64,000 bases of DNA, from assembly GCA_903923395.1 (NCBI GenBank), contig CAIXXM010000102.1:1-64000 (forward strand), in the 5' to 3' direction. The DNA comes from an uncultured Acidobacteriia bacterium (GTDB lineage: Bacteria; Acidobacteriota; Terriglobia; Bryobacterales; Bryobacteraceae). The notes under the pieces were generated by a model, which saw only the letters and a program-made list of their open reading frames with translations, was not told where the DNA came from and ran no database searches. Made by a program: the position numbers and the translations under genes. Shown here piece by piece: positions 36,033 to 43,293 of this stretch (positions within the stretch are counted from its first letter, which is position 1; each line of letters starts with the position of its first letter).

Positions 36033-38129
36033 CTATAAATCTGCACGGGAAATGCCGAGTTTTCGCATCACCGCGTTCAAAGTAGTCCGGTGCAGTCCCA
36101 GCCTGGTGGCCGCTGTGGTGACCACCCCGCCGCTGTCACGAAGCACCCGCAGAATGTGTTCCCGCTCCACATGCTCCAAAGTAATTGTTCCTTCTAGAGC
36201 GAGCGCGTCCTTTCTGATCTCGGAAAGCGGTGCGCGCAACGCGGGGCCGCGCGAGAGAATCACTGACCGCTCGATGAAGTTCTCCAGTTCCCGTATATTG
36301 CCAGGCCAATGCCAGGAGGTCAGTGCGCGCATGGTTTCGAGTGGAATTTGATCGATCTTCCGGCCCATTTTCTGTGCATACTTCTTAGTGAAGAAGCGCG
36401 CCAGAAGGGGAATGTCGTCCGGTCTATCGCGCAACGGCGGTGTGGTGACGGGAAATACTTTCAGGCGGTAATAGAGATCACTGCGGAATAGCTTGTCCCC
36501 CATCATCTGGGTGAGGTTGCGGTTGGTGGCGGCGACCAGCCGGACATCAATGGGAATAGTCTTTGTGCCCCCGAGCCGTTCAAAGGATTTCTCCTGCAGC
36601 GCGCGCAGCAGTTTTGGCTGCAAATCCAGAGGGATGTCGCCCACCTCATCCAGGAAGAGCGTCCCGCGGTGGGCCATTTCAAAGCGTCCGATCTTTTGTG
36701 TCAGCGCTCCGGTGAATGCCCCGCGTTCATAACCGAATAGTTCACTTTCCAGCAGTCCGGTGGGGATCGCCGCGCAGTTGAGTGTAATGAAAGGCATCTG
36801 CCGGCGCGGGCTCATCCGGTGCACCGCGCGGGCCACCAGTTCCTTCCCTGTGCCCGTTTCGCCCATGATTAATACGGTGGCGTCCGTGGGGGCCACCATC
36901 TCCACGAGTTCCTGCACCCGGTGGATCGGCGCGCTGGTGCCCACAATCTCTTCGAAACCCTTGCGGTGCAGGGCTTCCGGCTCATCCACTGCATTGTCGC
37001 GGCGTTCTCCCAAATCCTCTATAAATGAAATCCAGCGAAAAGGCGAGAGCTTCAAGACAGCGGTGGCCACCAGCACCGGCACGCGTGTGCCGTCTTTACG
37101 GATCAACTCTTTTTCATACGGAGCGCAGGCACCGAAACAGAGGCCCTCCTCGTGTGCCAGTTCATCGAGCGCACCATATTCGGGGGGCGTCAATGCAGCC
37201 CACTGGACCAAGCCCATCCGTAGATCGTCCCGACCGTATCCTGTCAACGTCAGAAAGGCATCATTCACTTCGGGAATGCGGTCAAATTCACCACTAACCA
37301 CCGCCACTATGGATGGACGCACCGGGATAGGGAGCAGCCGGGAGCTTTCGCGCCGCAGCTTCTCGTCATTTTCATGACGGCCGGTGAAATCCCGGACCAC
37401 CCGTGCGTAGCCCTGCAGGCCGCCGTCCTCCGTCCGAAGGGCCATGGTGATATTGTTTGCCCAGAACCGCGAGCCGTCCTTTTTCACCTGCCAGCCTTCT
37501 GCCCCGAAGTGCCCGGCCGTAGCCGCGCGGCGCAGTTCGTCCTGCAGGTTAGCGGCAAGAGCAGTGGTGTCCGAATAGAGGAAGGACGAAGGTTGCCCGA
37601 TTGCTTCTTCTGCCGTGAAGCCGTAAATTCGCTCGGCACCCCCGTACCAGGCTGCGATGCAGCCTTCACTGTCCAGCAGGAACAGCGCGTAATCCTGGAC
37701 CCAGGCTGGAATCGATTCCCGTGCCGTGTCAGTCTTGGTGTGCAGGACCACTACATGGCGCACCGGCAGGATGTTTTTCTTGGCTTTGTAGATAACCGGC
37801 AGCGGCTCGCCGTTCGTGCGGGTGAGCATCAGTTCGCCCTCATGTTCCCCTTCTTGCAGAAAAGCATTCCAAAGCTGAGGGATGGCAGGCTTGATTTCCG
37901 GTGCCGCCAGATCATCCAGCTTCAGTCCGATAATCTTTTCCCTTGAAAGGCCGAGAAGCTTGCCAACACCCATGCTGACTTCCACGGAAGTCCTTTCGTC
38001 ATCAGTGATGAGAACAGGTGTTGCGGGATGAAAAACAATCGCGCGGAAGAGGTGTTCCAGTTCCTTGGGGCCATTCTCCAAAAGCCACTGTTCAGAGGCG
38101 GAACTAAAGCCAAGAGACGCCAAAACCAC
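36033..38129 (-). CDS. PAS-domain sigma-54-dependent activator (AAA+, Fis-type HTH)
   Basis: 698 aa; '[15 protein letters not shown]', '[22 protein letters not shown]', C-term '[23 protein letters not shown]'; PAS motifs '[14 protein letters not shown]'. Confidence 0.93.
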
Positions 38130-38486: not shown

Positions 38487-39215
38487 ATGATGAAGTTATT
38501 CAAAACAGCTGCTGTGGTGCTCTTTATCGGTCTTGCCGGCATCGCGTCAGTCACGCCGGCACGTGCGGATGAGTGGAACAAAAAGACGGTGATGACATTC
38601 AGCGGCCCGGTTGAAATCCCCGGTGTGCACCTGGCCGGCTTTGCTGTGCTGCCCGCAGGAACTTACGTCTTCAAGCTTCTGGATTCCTCTTCAGACCGTC
38701 ACATCGTGCAGATCTTCAGCGAAGACGAAAAGACTGTTTATGCCACAATTCTCGCGATCCCCAATTACCGTTTGAAGTCTACAGACAAGACGGTCATCAC
38801 CTTCCGTGAACGTCCCGCCGGTGAACCGGAGGCTTTGCGTGCCTGGTTCTATCCTGGCGCCAACTGGGGAGAGGAATTTGTCTACGGTAAAGCCAAGGCG
38901 GTGGAACTTGCCAAGACCTCTGCTGTTCCAGTTCTCTTCATGCCCGCGGAAGCAGCCGCGGAGGTGACCTCCCACCCCGCCACTCCGGACATGCCAGTAG
39001 TTGTGGAACTGAAGCGCCAGCCCGTCATGGCCATTCAGCCGACTGGCGAAGAAGTGGAACTTGCCGCTGTAGTCGCTCCGGTTCCCGCGGCGCTCGTTGC
39101 TGACACGGCGGCAACTCTCCCTGCGACTGCCAGCAACACTCCCCTGCTTGCACTGGGTGGCCTGCTCGCACTTGCGGCAGCCTTCTCCCTCCGTGCATAC
39201 GCCAAGTCTGTCTAG
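38487..39215 (+). CDS. Exported protein with C-terminal LPxTA-type sortase sorting signal
   Basis: Start MMKLFKTAAVVLFIGLAGIASVTPARA; C-term LPATASNTPLLALGGLLALAAAFSLRAYAKSV (motif, hydrophobic helix, basic tail). Confidence 0.8.
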   Translation: MMKLFKTAAVVLFIGLAGIASVTPARADEWNKKTVMTFSGPVEIPGVHLAGFAVLPAGTYVFKLLDSSSDRHIVQIFSEDEKTVYATILAIPNYRLKSTDKTVITFRERPAGEPEALRAWFYPGANWGEEFVYGKAKAVELAKTSAVPVLFMPAEAAAEVTSHPATPDMPVVVELKRQPVMAIQPTGEEVELAAVVAPVPAALVADTAATLPATASNTPLLALGGLLALAAAFSLRAYAKSV

Positions 39216-39231
39216 TCCAGGCAGTTTCTCC

Positions 39232-39260
39232 GCCCGCTGCTGATTATTCTGTCAGCGGGC
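39232..39260 (+). terminator. Intercistronic hairpin GCCCGCTG...CAGCGGGC (8-bp stem) between the LPxTA gene and the malic enzyme gene
   Basis: Inverted repeat 39232-39239 / 39253-39260; no T-run, so attenuation or mRNA stabilisation rather than a classic terminator. Confidence 0.4.
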
Positions 39261-39284
39261 TTGCAAGGCAAAGAAAAGAATGGC

Positions 39285-41018
39285 ATGCGACCCCTGGTCA
39301 TCCCCGAACTGGCGCCTGCCTTGAACTGCGGCAAGCCGGACAGCACTGTAATTCATACAAAGGCCCGCGGTCTCGATGTCCTCAACTCGCCTTTCCTCAA
39401 CAAGGGGACTGCGTTCACTGCCCGGGAGCGTCACGACCTTGGCCTTACCGGCTTGCTTCCGTCCGATATTGGCACTCTGGAGATGCAGGTCCGCCGTGCT
39501 TACATCCAGTACGAACGGCTCCCGGATGCTCTCAGCCGCAACGTTTATCTGTCGGCGCTCCATGACCGCAACGACGTTTTGTTTTACCGCCTCCTGTCGG
39601 AACATCTCCGGGAGATGATTCCGGTCGTCAATGATGTCACGGTGGGGCTCGCGATGGAGCAGTACCACCATGAATCCCGCCGTCCGCGCGGCGTTTACCT
39701 CTCGATCGATCACATGGATTCCATGGAGGAATCCTTTCGGAACCTTGCCGTTGGCCCTGGTGCAGCGGACCTCATCCTCGCCACGGACGCCGAACAGATT
39801 CCTGGCCTCGGCGACTGGGGCGTTGGCGGCATTGAAGTTTCCATCGGCAAACTGGCGATCTACACCGCCGCGGGCGGAATTGATCCCGCCCGTGCCATTC
39901 CAGTAATGCTCGATTGCGGTACCAACCGGGACAGCCTGCTCAAAGACCCGATGTACGTTGGCAACCGTCACCCGCGCGTCAGAGGTGCCCGTTACGACGA
40001 ATTCATTTCACGGTACGTCGCAATCGCGACCCGGCTCTTTCCCGGGGTCATGCTTCTCTGGCAGGATCTGGAGGCGGCCAATGCCCGCCGGATTCTCACG
40101 AAATACGGAAGAAGCCTCTGCACTTTCAATGATGAGATACAGGGAACCGGGGCTATCACTCTGGCGGCCATTATTTCCGCAAGCAGAGTTTCAGGTACGC
40201 CCATGCGCAACCACCGTGTCGTTATCTTTGGCGCGGGAACCGCAGGGCTGGGCATCGCGGATCAGATTTGTGCCGCAATGGTTATGGAAGGTCGGACACA
40301 GGCGCAGGCCATCGGTCATTTCTGGTGTGTGGACCAGCATGGTCTTCTGGTCCAGGGGCAGGCGTCGAAGTTGAGCGGTGAGCAATTGATGTATGCCCGC
40401 CCCGATTCGGAAACCAAGGGTTGGAAGCAGGATGCCCCCGGCATCTCACTGGCGGAGACCGTGCGGCGGGTCCGGCCTTCCATTCTGGTTGGTGCCTCCG
40501 GCGTCCCGGGCAGTTTCACGGAAGCCATCATTCGCGAGATGTCGGCGCATGTGGAAAGGCCGCTCATCATACCGCTCTCCAACCCGGCACCCCGTTCGGA
40601 AGCAAATCCCGTTGACCTTCTGGCCTGGAGCGGAGGCCGCGCGCTTATCGCCACGGGCAGCACATTCGCTCCCGTGACTTACAAGGGAGTTACCTATGTG
40701 ATCGGGCAGGTCGATAACGCAATGCTATTTCCTGGGCTCTGTCTGGGAACGATTGTTTCCAAGGCGAAGGTTGTGAGTGAAGGCATGTTCATGGCGGCGG
40801 CGAATGCCGTTTCCAGCCTGGTCGCCGTCCTGCAGCCCGGGGCTTCTCTCTTGCCCCACATTGACGATCTCCGCAGCGTTTCGCTGACCGTCGCTTCCGC
40901 TGTGGTGGAGACAGTGGAAGCCGAAGGTCTCTCTGATGTCCGTCTCCACGATATTGTGCAGGAAGTCCGCGATGCCATGTGGCAGCCCGCATACCGCGAG
41001 ATCGTCGCGTCTGAATGA
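39285..41018 (+). CDS. NAD(P)-dependent malic enzyme
   Basis: 'NKGTAFTARERHDLGLTGLLP', 'GWGVGGIEVSIGKLAIYTAAGGIDP'-like, 'FNDEIQGTGAITLA', 'VIFGAGTAGLGIAD'; ORF extends upstream to 39261. Confidence 0.92.
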   Translation: MRPLVIPELAPALNCGKPDSTVIHTKARGLDVLNSPFLNKGTAFTARERHDLGLTGLLPSDIGTLEMQVRRAYIQYERLPDALSRNVYLSALHDRNDVLFYRLLSEHLREMIPVVNDVTVGLAMEQYHHESRRPRGVYLSIDHMDSMEESFRNLAVGPGAADLILATDAEQIPGLGDWGVGGIEVSIGKLAIYTAAGGIDPARAIPVMLDCGTNRDSLLKDPMYVGNRHPRVRGARYDEFISRYVAIATRLFPGVMLLWQDLEAANARRILTKYGRSLCTFNDEIQGTGAITLAAIISASRVSGTPMRNHRVVIFGAGTAGLGIADQICAAMVMEGRTQAQAIGHFWCVDQHGLLVQGQASKLSGEQLMYARPDSETKGWKQDAPGISLAETVRRVRPSILVGASGVPGSFTEAIIREMSAHVERPLIIPLSNPAPRSEANPVDLLAWSGGRALIATGSTFAPVTYKGVTYVIGQVDNAMLFPGLCLGTIVSKAKVVSEGMFMAAANAVSSLVAVLQPGASLLPHIDDLRSVSLTVASAVVETVEAEGLSDVRLHDIVQEVRDAMWQPAYREIVASE

Positions 41019-41875
41019 ATACTGTACTGCTGTTCATCCCTTTGCTGCTTTCCAGCCAGGAAACTGACTTCCATATCGCGGTCAACGTCGACCTTGTGGT
41101 GTTGACCGCCACGGTGCATGACAGAAAAGGACAACTGGCGCCGCAACTCGGAGTCCAGGATTTTCAAGTTTTTGAAGATGGTACCCGCCAAACCATTCGA
41201 GTCTTCCGCCATGAAGATGTTCCCGTCACCGTTGGCCTGGTGGTCGATCACAGCGGCAGCATGCGGAATAAACTCCCGGGTGTAATTGCCGCCGGCCGTG
41301 CTTTCGCCAGTTCCAGCAACCCAGACGACCACATGTTCGTGGTGAACTTCAACGAGCAAGTGACCGTTGGCGCTGACCGCTTTACTGACGGACCGAACGA
41401 ACTTGCCGCGGCGATTATGAACCGCCCCGCCGCAGGTCAGACCGCGCTCTATGATGCGATTTTCGCCGCTCTGGAACGGTTGCCAAAAGCCGGGCCGGAG
41501 AAGAAAGCGTTGCTGGTTGTCAGCGACGGTTCTGACAACGCCAGCAAACACTCGCTTGCGGAGGTCCTTGACAAGCTCTCCAAGTCCAATGCAATCGTGT
41601 ATTCCATCGGCATTTTTGATCTGAACGACGCCGACAGCAACCGCGGTGTATTACGCCAATTGGCCCGTGTTACCGGCGGTGAGGCATTCTTCCCGCAACA
41701 CTATAGTGACGTTACCGGTGTCTGTCAGCAAATCGCACGGGAGATACGTACGCAGTACACGCTTGGCTATGTCTCCACGAACGCTTCGCGCACCGGTTCC
41801 AGAAATGTCATGGTGACCGCCGGCCGCAATCTCACAGTCCGGACCCGCACCTCATACACCGCTGGCGGCAAATGA
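41015..41875 (+). CDS. Exported VWA-domain protein (VWFA-related acidobacterial type, intact MIDAS DHSGS)
   Basis: 286 aa; 'VGLVVDHSGSMRNKL', 'LLVVSDGSDNAS'; ATGA overlaps on both sides. Confidence 0.85.
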   Translation: MNTVLLFIPLLLSSQETDFHIAVNVDLVVLTATVHDRKGQLAPQLGVQDFQVFEDGTRQTIRVFRHEDVPVTVGLVVDHSGSMRNKLPGVIAAGRAFASSSNPDDHMFVVNFNEQVTVGADRFTDGPNELAAAIMNRPAAGQTALYDAIFAALERLPKAGPEKKALLVVSDGSDNASKHSLAEVLDKLSKSNAIVYSIGIFDLNDADSNRGVLRQLARVTGGEAFFPQHYSDVTGVCQQIAREIRTQYTLGYVSTNASRTGSRNVMVTAGRNLTVRTRTSYTAGGK

Positions 41876-42414
41876 AGTGCACTCTCACCTGGTTCCGTTG
41901 GTCTCTCTTTGCTGTCGCCGTGACCTTGCTCACCTATTCAACCGGCGTGTACCTCGAAACGTACTTGTTTCAGCAGCAGAAGTTGCCTGTCTTTCTCCAT
42001 CAGGGAAGTGACGTGCCGCCGGTTGCGGGGCTGATCGGACGGTTGGAAGTTACCCGCCTGGGATTATCTGCGATCGTCATGGAAGGCACCGGCACCGCCG
42101 TTTTGCGCCATGCCGCCGGACACATCGCTGGCACCCCGCTTCCGGGTCAGCCCGGAAACACCGGCATCTCCGCGCACCGGGATACCTTGTTCCGCCCGCT
42201 CCGCAATATCCGCATGCGCGATGTGATCACCCTGACGACCCCACAGGGAACGTATAAGTACAGTGTCCGGTCCACCCAGATTGTAGAGCCGGAAAATATA
42301 ACTGTCCTTGCATCAGGCCCTGGCGAGACACTTACATTGGTAACTTGCTATCCGTTCTACTTCATCGGTCCTGCCCCCAAACGCTTCATCGTGACGGCAA
42401 AGAGGATCCTGTAA
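41872..42414 (+). CDS. Sortase, class D-like
   Basis: 180 aa; N-terminal TM; 'IGRLEVTRLGLSAIVMEG', catalytic His 'TGISAHRDTLFRPLRNI', TLxTC 'LTLVTCYPFYFIGPAPKRFIV' (Cys and Arg). Confidence 0.9.
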   Translation: MKCTLTWFRWSLFAVAVTLLTYSTGVYLETYLFQQQKLPVFLHQGSDVPPVAGLIGRLEVTRLGLSAIVMEGTGTAVLRHAAGHIAGTPLPGQPGNTGISAHRDTLFRPLRNIRMRDVITLTTPQGTYKYSVRSTQIVEPENITVLASGPGETLTLVTCYPFYFIGPAPKRFIVTAKRIL

Positions 42415-42522: not shown

Positions 42523-43293
42523 CTAAGAGTTTGAGAAGCGTTTCAGTCGCAACAGAGCGATGCATGCAAACGCACCGCCGAAGAGAAGGATGGTGCCCGG
42601 TTCAGGCGTGCTGCTAACTGGGCCGGGGTTGGATGAAAAGGTTCCCGTTCCCGACGCATTGAACTGCGGACCCGGATAGGCTTGGTTCGAGGTTACTGTC
42701 CCGGTGGTGAAATTGGGCAGCAAAGAAGAGAGACTCCAGGAAGCGTTTTCCTGAGTCTGTCCGGTGAAGTCCAGATAGGAAGAGGTGAGAATGAGCTGGT
42801 TCAGGTTACCCGAGTTAGAACTGGCATTGAAGCTGCCACCCGTGGAGTTGATGTTGGAACTGAAGCTGGCACCCGTTGTGGCAGGGCTGCCCGTGACAGA
42901 AAACACGCCTGACAGAAGGTTCGCGCCGGGGTTGCTCTCATTATCGATGAAGGAAAAAGTTCCGGAGTAGCCAGTTTGGTCCAGCCCATCACCCGCGCCG
43001 CAAGTTGAGGCACAGTTTCCAATCTGTGTTGAAGTTGCGCTCAAGGTAAAGGTCGCGTTCTCAGGACTGGAGGTGAAAGGCAGACCAGCGCCGGAAAACT
43101 GAAATGAAACCGAACCGGAAGCAGATACCGTCGTCGTATTGCCTGACGTCGTGATGCTCCACTGTTGTTCGGAACCCGTGGACTGCAGATATTGCGCAAA
43201 GGTGACGGAAGTTGCCATGGCGGAGGGAATTCCCGCTATCGTGATCGCGGCAGCCAGGATCATGCCCCGAACGCTGTATCGTTTATGAAACAT
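42523..43293 (-). CDS. PEP-CTERM protein (exosortase-type sorting signal)
   Basis: 256 aa; signal peptide; C-term SSTPEPGTILLFGGAFACIALLRLKRFSNS. Confidence 0.9.
   Translation of the reverse strand: MFHKRYSVRGMILAAAITIAGIPSAMATSVTFAQYLQSTGSEQQWSITTSGNTTTVSASGSVSFQFSGAGLPFTSSPENATFTLSATSTQIGNCASTCGAGDGLDQTGYSGTFSFIDNESNPGANLLSGVFSVTGSPATTGASFSSNINSTGGSFNASSNSGNLNQLILTSSYLDFTGQTQENASWSLSSLLPNFTTGTVTSNQAYPGPQFNASGTGTFSSNPGPVSSTPEPGTILLFGGAFACIALLRLKRFSNS

Follow-up and report, generated by a model that had tools for sequence, protein, structure and literature searches.

Sortases have been noted in diderm bacteria for years; a search of the available literature found no paper on acidobacterial sortases, nor on what diderm sortases attach proteins to. 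The closest described systems are the class D (subfamily 4) LPxTA systems, represented by B. anthracis SrtC with BasI and BasH, the LPXTA system of B. cellulosilyticus, and the curated models NF058671 and NF058670. LPXTA is the published motif of these sortases (PMC3617157); the motifs used by class D enzymes are LPNTA or LPQTGS (PMC3208642, PMC4498605). SrtC of B. anthracis cleaves the Thr–Ala bond of LPNTA, with m-Dpm as the acceptor (PMC3297441). A further point of comparison is the class GN (“marine”) type, TIGR03784/TIGR03788, a Gram-negative cassette formed from a sortase and a lone LPxTG-type target (PMC3237569).

The locus described here lies in a window of 64,000 nucleotides, the whole stretch of DNA that was analysed, from a genome of 6.15 Mb (169 contigs, 98% complete). 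A genome search located LptD, and for this reason the sequence supports a diderm host, a Bryobacteraceae-type soil acidobacterium, as the initial annotation had presumed in calling it diderm; the DAP epimerase DapF is also encoded. Four genes follow one another on the forward strand: a sortase substrate (38487–39215), a malic enzyme (39261–41018), a VWA protein (41015–41875) and a sortase (41872–42414), with ATGA overlaps, evident from the coordinates, at the malic enzyme/VWA (41015) and VWA/sortase (41872) junctions. With class D systems the locus shares an LPxTA(S/T) motif, an N-terminally anchored enzyme, and a substrate gene of the kind often found beside the sortase. It differs in its diderm host, in a sortase score slightly below the curated cut-offs, in an unrelated substrate domain, and in tails that may carry either Ala or Gly after the Thr.

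The 41872–42414 protein, predicted to comprise an N-terminal membrane anchor and a periplasmic catalytic domain, matches the Pfam Sortase family PF04203 at 97 bits (cut-off 26.6) and TIGR01076 at 74 bits (cut-off 39.35). The residues expected for catalysis, His102 (in SAHRD, 42175–42177), Cys159 (in TLVTC, 42346–42348) and Arg171 (42382–42384), are intact, and are invariant in an alignment of 40 relatives. Its AlphaFold2 model (pLDDT 93.5) retrieved sortases in all 50 of the PDB matches listed, with a best E-value of 1e-13 and C. perfringens sortase D (4d70) as the top match. Domain score, catalytic residues and modelled fold all place the protein, the only sortase in the host genome, in the sortase superfamily (C60), with a predicted transpeptidase activity.

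Its class is a matter of degree. Class D models outscore those of GN, E, C and F, and the substrate motif of the class, LPxTA or LPxTGS, is found as LPATAS here and as LPxT[AG][SG] in relatives, but the scores against NF058671 (129.7 bits, cut-off 140) and NF033746 (121.6, cut-off 165) both fall short. The label “class D-like” given by the initial annotation is therefore correct, with class D as the best match in both sequence and fold, whereas the NCBIfam cut-offs leave the enzyme outside formal class D; among its relatives, those at loci L007, L016 and L095 exceed the NF058671 cut-off. Scores for the other classes were lower (GN 89 bits, E 77, and C 70 against a cut-off of 160). Membership of class GN was rejected, as 89 bits compares with a TIGR03784 cut-off of 158.25, and the adjacent VWA protein belongs to TIGR03436 rather than to the TIGR03788 VIT/VWA targets; a VWA protein lies nearby in both systems, but that of the window has neither a sorting tail nor a VIT domain. 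As LPxTA has been published as the class D, or subfamily 4, motif, what the initial annotation called a variant is the expected motif for a class D-like enzyme, and not an exotic one.

The 38487–39215 gene encodes a protein of 242 residues, probably secreted, with a Sec-like N-terminus (...TPARA|DEW; putative signal peptide MMKLFK...TPARA, 38487–38567, read by eye from the sequence), a conserved beta-rich domain of ~115 residues, followed by a Pro/Ala-rich linker and by the C-terminus LPATASNTPLLALGGLLALAAAFSLRAYAKSV. This C-terminus combines the LPATAS sorting motif (residues 211–216, 39117–39134) with a hydrophobic helix and short basic end (...SLRAYAKSV, 39141–39212). A profile built from 34 tails taken from sortase neighbourhoods matches it at 39117–39209 with E=2e-12, the sole significant match in the host genome; rebuilt without the window sequence, the profile still finds the tail, with a genome-scaled E of 2.4e-10, hence the match is not due to chance. 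The survey of the proteome for such tails that had been proposed with the initial annotation has thus returned a single one. Across the 34 tails the pattern LPxT[AG][SG]..PL..L.GLL.LG is conserved, and the motif's Pro and Thr never vary, which speaks for a sorting signal, because a plain membrane anchor would not need them. The tail has no match to the LPxTATN sorting-signal model NF058670 at E<=1. The domain, of which the host genome holds a single family member, matched no Pfam family above cut-off and no PDB fold at E<=0.001, all listed TM-scores being at most 0.25.

Pairing of enzyme and tail was followed at two scales. A close survey of 41 genomes (the host and 40 relatives) found 16 with both substrate and sortase and 22 with neither, leaving three exceptions: G016, where the substrate lies near a contig end and no sortase was found; G023, which has sortase without a close substrate homologue and an LPKTGS-tailed protein adjoining one sortase; and G024, also without a close substrate homologue, where the neighbour's tail is masked. 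Across 297 Acidobacteriota genomes, sortase was detected in 59 and the tail (threshold E<=5e-4) in 45, every one of which has a sortase, while none of the 238 sortase-free genomes has a tail at that threshold (Fisher p=2.8e-41, a value that ignores the kinship of the genomes). At E<=0.01 four sortase-free genomes match, but from profile positions 6–9, without the LPxT part. A same-strand sortase lies within 5 kb of 48 of the 61 tails, a proportion biased towards adjacent tails by the retrieval of the profile's loci via the sortase, a bias that cannot yield the result of 0 in 238. Fourteen genomes seemed to have sortase only; on inspection, eight have an adjacent LPxT[AG] or MPxT[AG] tail, and in the other six both sortases tested (G045, G204) are of class GN. 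The strict pairing of sortase and tail in genomes is well supported.

The substrate domain, searched alone, occurs in 37 of the 297 genomes. Four of these lack sortase (G143, G148, G180, G253), and their proteins are short and tail-less; tail-less paralogues also stand beside tailed forms in sortase-bearing genomes. Because the domain occurs without the tail in both settings, the tail behaves as a separable and removable sorting suffix, a property already described for the LPXTG and PEP-CTERM types of signal (PMC3237569).

The favoured reading, which is probably correct, is a sortase system of one enzyme dedicated to one substrate in a diderm, with cleavage between Thr and Ala and transfer to an amine, likeliest that of meso-DAP. 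The Sec pathway would export the substrate, whose C-terminal helix would keep it in the inner membrane, where the membrane-anchored class D-like sortase would cut LPAT|AS at the periplasmic face, through a thioester on Cys159, before transfer to a primary amine. The acceptor would most likely be meso-DAP, through its side-chain amine, in lipid II or in peptidoglycan; the mature beta-rich domain would then become covalently fixed to the periplasmic sacculus on its flexible Pro/Ala linker. We infer the cleavage site, acceptor and location, the peptidoglycan amine being drawn by analogy from a Gram-positive relative; attachment to meso-DAP is the simplest reading since SrtC uses m-Dpm and the host, a diderm by its LptD, has a DAP epimerase. 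The observation made in the initial annotation thus holds, and its interpretation was partly right: the chemistry is of a known kind, the host is a diderm and the substrate is a dedicated one. With one enzyme and one substrate paired in a genome, the question of the diderm acceptor becomes addressable at the level of single genes. Other acidobacterial genera, some of them represented by near-complete genomes, carry the same pair; what can be put to the test in this system is the acceptor.

That the C-terminal tail does no more than anchor the protein in the membrane, with the neighbouring sortase acting on something else, is very improbable: a plain anchor would also look like a helix with a basic end, and the match to Pfam Gram_pos_anchor (E=0.0012, 19.2 bits) is slightly below the cut-off of 20, but the co-occurrence over 297 genomes, the invariant Pro and Thr, the absence of the whole tail from sortase-free genomes bearing the domain, and the lack of any other candidate tail in the host genome all argue otherwise. 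Even harder to credit is a single functional operon of four genes in which the malic enzyme (oxaloacetate-decarboxylating; NF010052, 723 bits) contributes to anchoring. The ATGA overlaps would suit it, as would the substrate–malic–VWA–sortase order, which recurs in about a dozen related loci, but the malic enzyme belongs to cytoplasmic metabolism and is missing between substrate and sortase at about ten loci (L003, L004 (= L090), L007, L009, L010, L012, L013 (= L097), L089, L093, L096), three of which (L003, L004, L089) branch among malic-bearing loci. A functional role for the malic enzyme was rejected on this patchy presence. The VWA protein, which is secreted, scores 190 bits with TIGR03436 acidobact_VWFA (cut-off 81). 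It is frequent in the host's own family, lies upstream in divergent orientation in L007, and does not accompany the pair in L009, L010 and L093. Where the sortase occurs in Gammaproteobacteria, Bacillota or further acidobacterial families, it mostly adjoins a small tailed protein with no detectable Pfam domain. The core is substrate plus sortase, with the malic enzyme an optional passenger and the VWA protein frequent but optional; the four genes do stand in one run in the window, as first annotated, but as a unit they are incomplete at a number of similar loci.

Other readings accept the sorting signal and differ on the fate of the cleaved protein. Pilin-type sortases use lysine acceptors, and the sortase might join its substrate to a protein amine, whether the lysine of another substrate copy (giving a pilus-like polymer), the VWA partner, whose gene overlaps that of the sortase in the window, or an outer-membrane protein; this is rather unlikely. 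A YPK-like lysine context (EFVYPK) that loosely resembles the Gram-positive pilin motif occurs in 88% of the domains with a tail and in 35% of those without, but the T70, A131 and T7 columns differ equally between the two, the copy in the window has VYGK in place of VYPK, the sortase scores far below the class C cut-off, and the VWA gene is missing from some substrate–sortase pairs. As other columns too are more conserved in tailed forms, the VYPK lysine was dropped as pilin-like evidence. The broader proposition that the diderm sortase fixes its substrate to some non-peptidoglycan target, such as the lysine of a substrate copy, the VWA protein or an outer-membrane component, is given a slightly lower probability; if true, the envelope would contain a covalent structure for which monoderms offer no known counterpart. 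Marginally less probable again is that the sortase is mainly a processing protease, cutting the tail so that water takes the thioester and the protein is released to the periplasm or outside. Sortases do hydrolyse when an amine is absent, this sequence analysis revealed no acceptor, and a sacculus beneath the outer membrane would not by itself give surface display; on the other side, the class D relative of known chemistry transfers to m-Dpm (PMC3297441), and tail-less paralogues already supply a soluble form without sortase, which would make a release-only enzyme redundant.

Elsewhere in the phylum, class GN pairs of a separate kind occur in G112 and G275, so that Acidobacteriota have two sortase kinds. 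Class GN sortases with VIT/VWA targets (TIGR03788) were seen in L205 and L215, and further class GN sortases in L202 and L210. At L095 (4186–5769, genome G019), a second sortase scoring above the NF058671 cut-off (150 bits) lies beside a protein ending MPATSAG...RRKR. An MPVTAG-tailed protein with the peptidoglycan-binding domain PF01471 adjoins a sortase at L208 (2697–4829), a hint that this substrate meets peptidoglycan. The sortase of L016, from a record titled Betaproteobacteria, branches among those of Acidobacteriota, and is perhaps from a mislabelled bin or the product of transfer.

Upstream of the substrate, on the reverse strand, lies a divergent PAS/sigma-54-type activator (36033–38129; Pfam Sigma54_activat, 235 bits), of which strong homologues lie close to the substrate in L094, L098, L100, L103, L006 and L011. 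A search upstream of the substrate gene gave no match to a sigma-54 promoter, and for this reason the activator as a possible regulator of the cluster is only a guess. The same strand carries a secreted TIG/metallophosphatase-like protein with the Solibacter C-terminal domain TIGR03437 (32876–35701) and, directly downstream of the sortase, a PEP-CTERM protein (42523–43293). The exosortase/PEP-CTERM system resembles the sortase pair in having a C-terminal motif–helix–basic signal and a dedicated processing enzyme, but is not homologous to it, with a PEP motif and a multi-pass enzyme. An exosortase is encoded in the host genome (237 bits), giving two unrelated C-terminal sorting systems within one cell.
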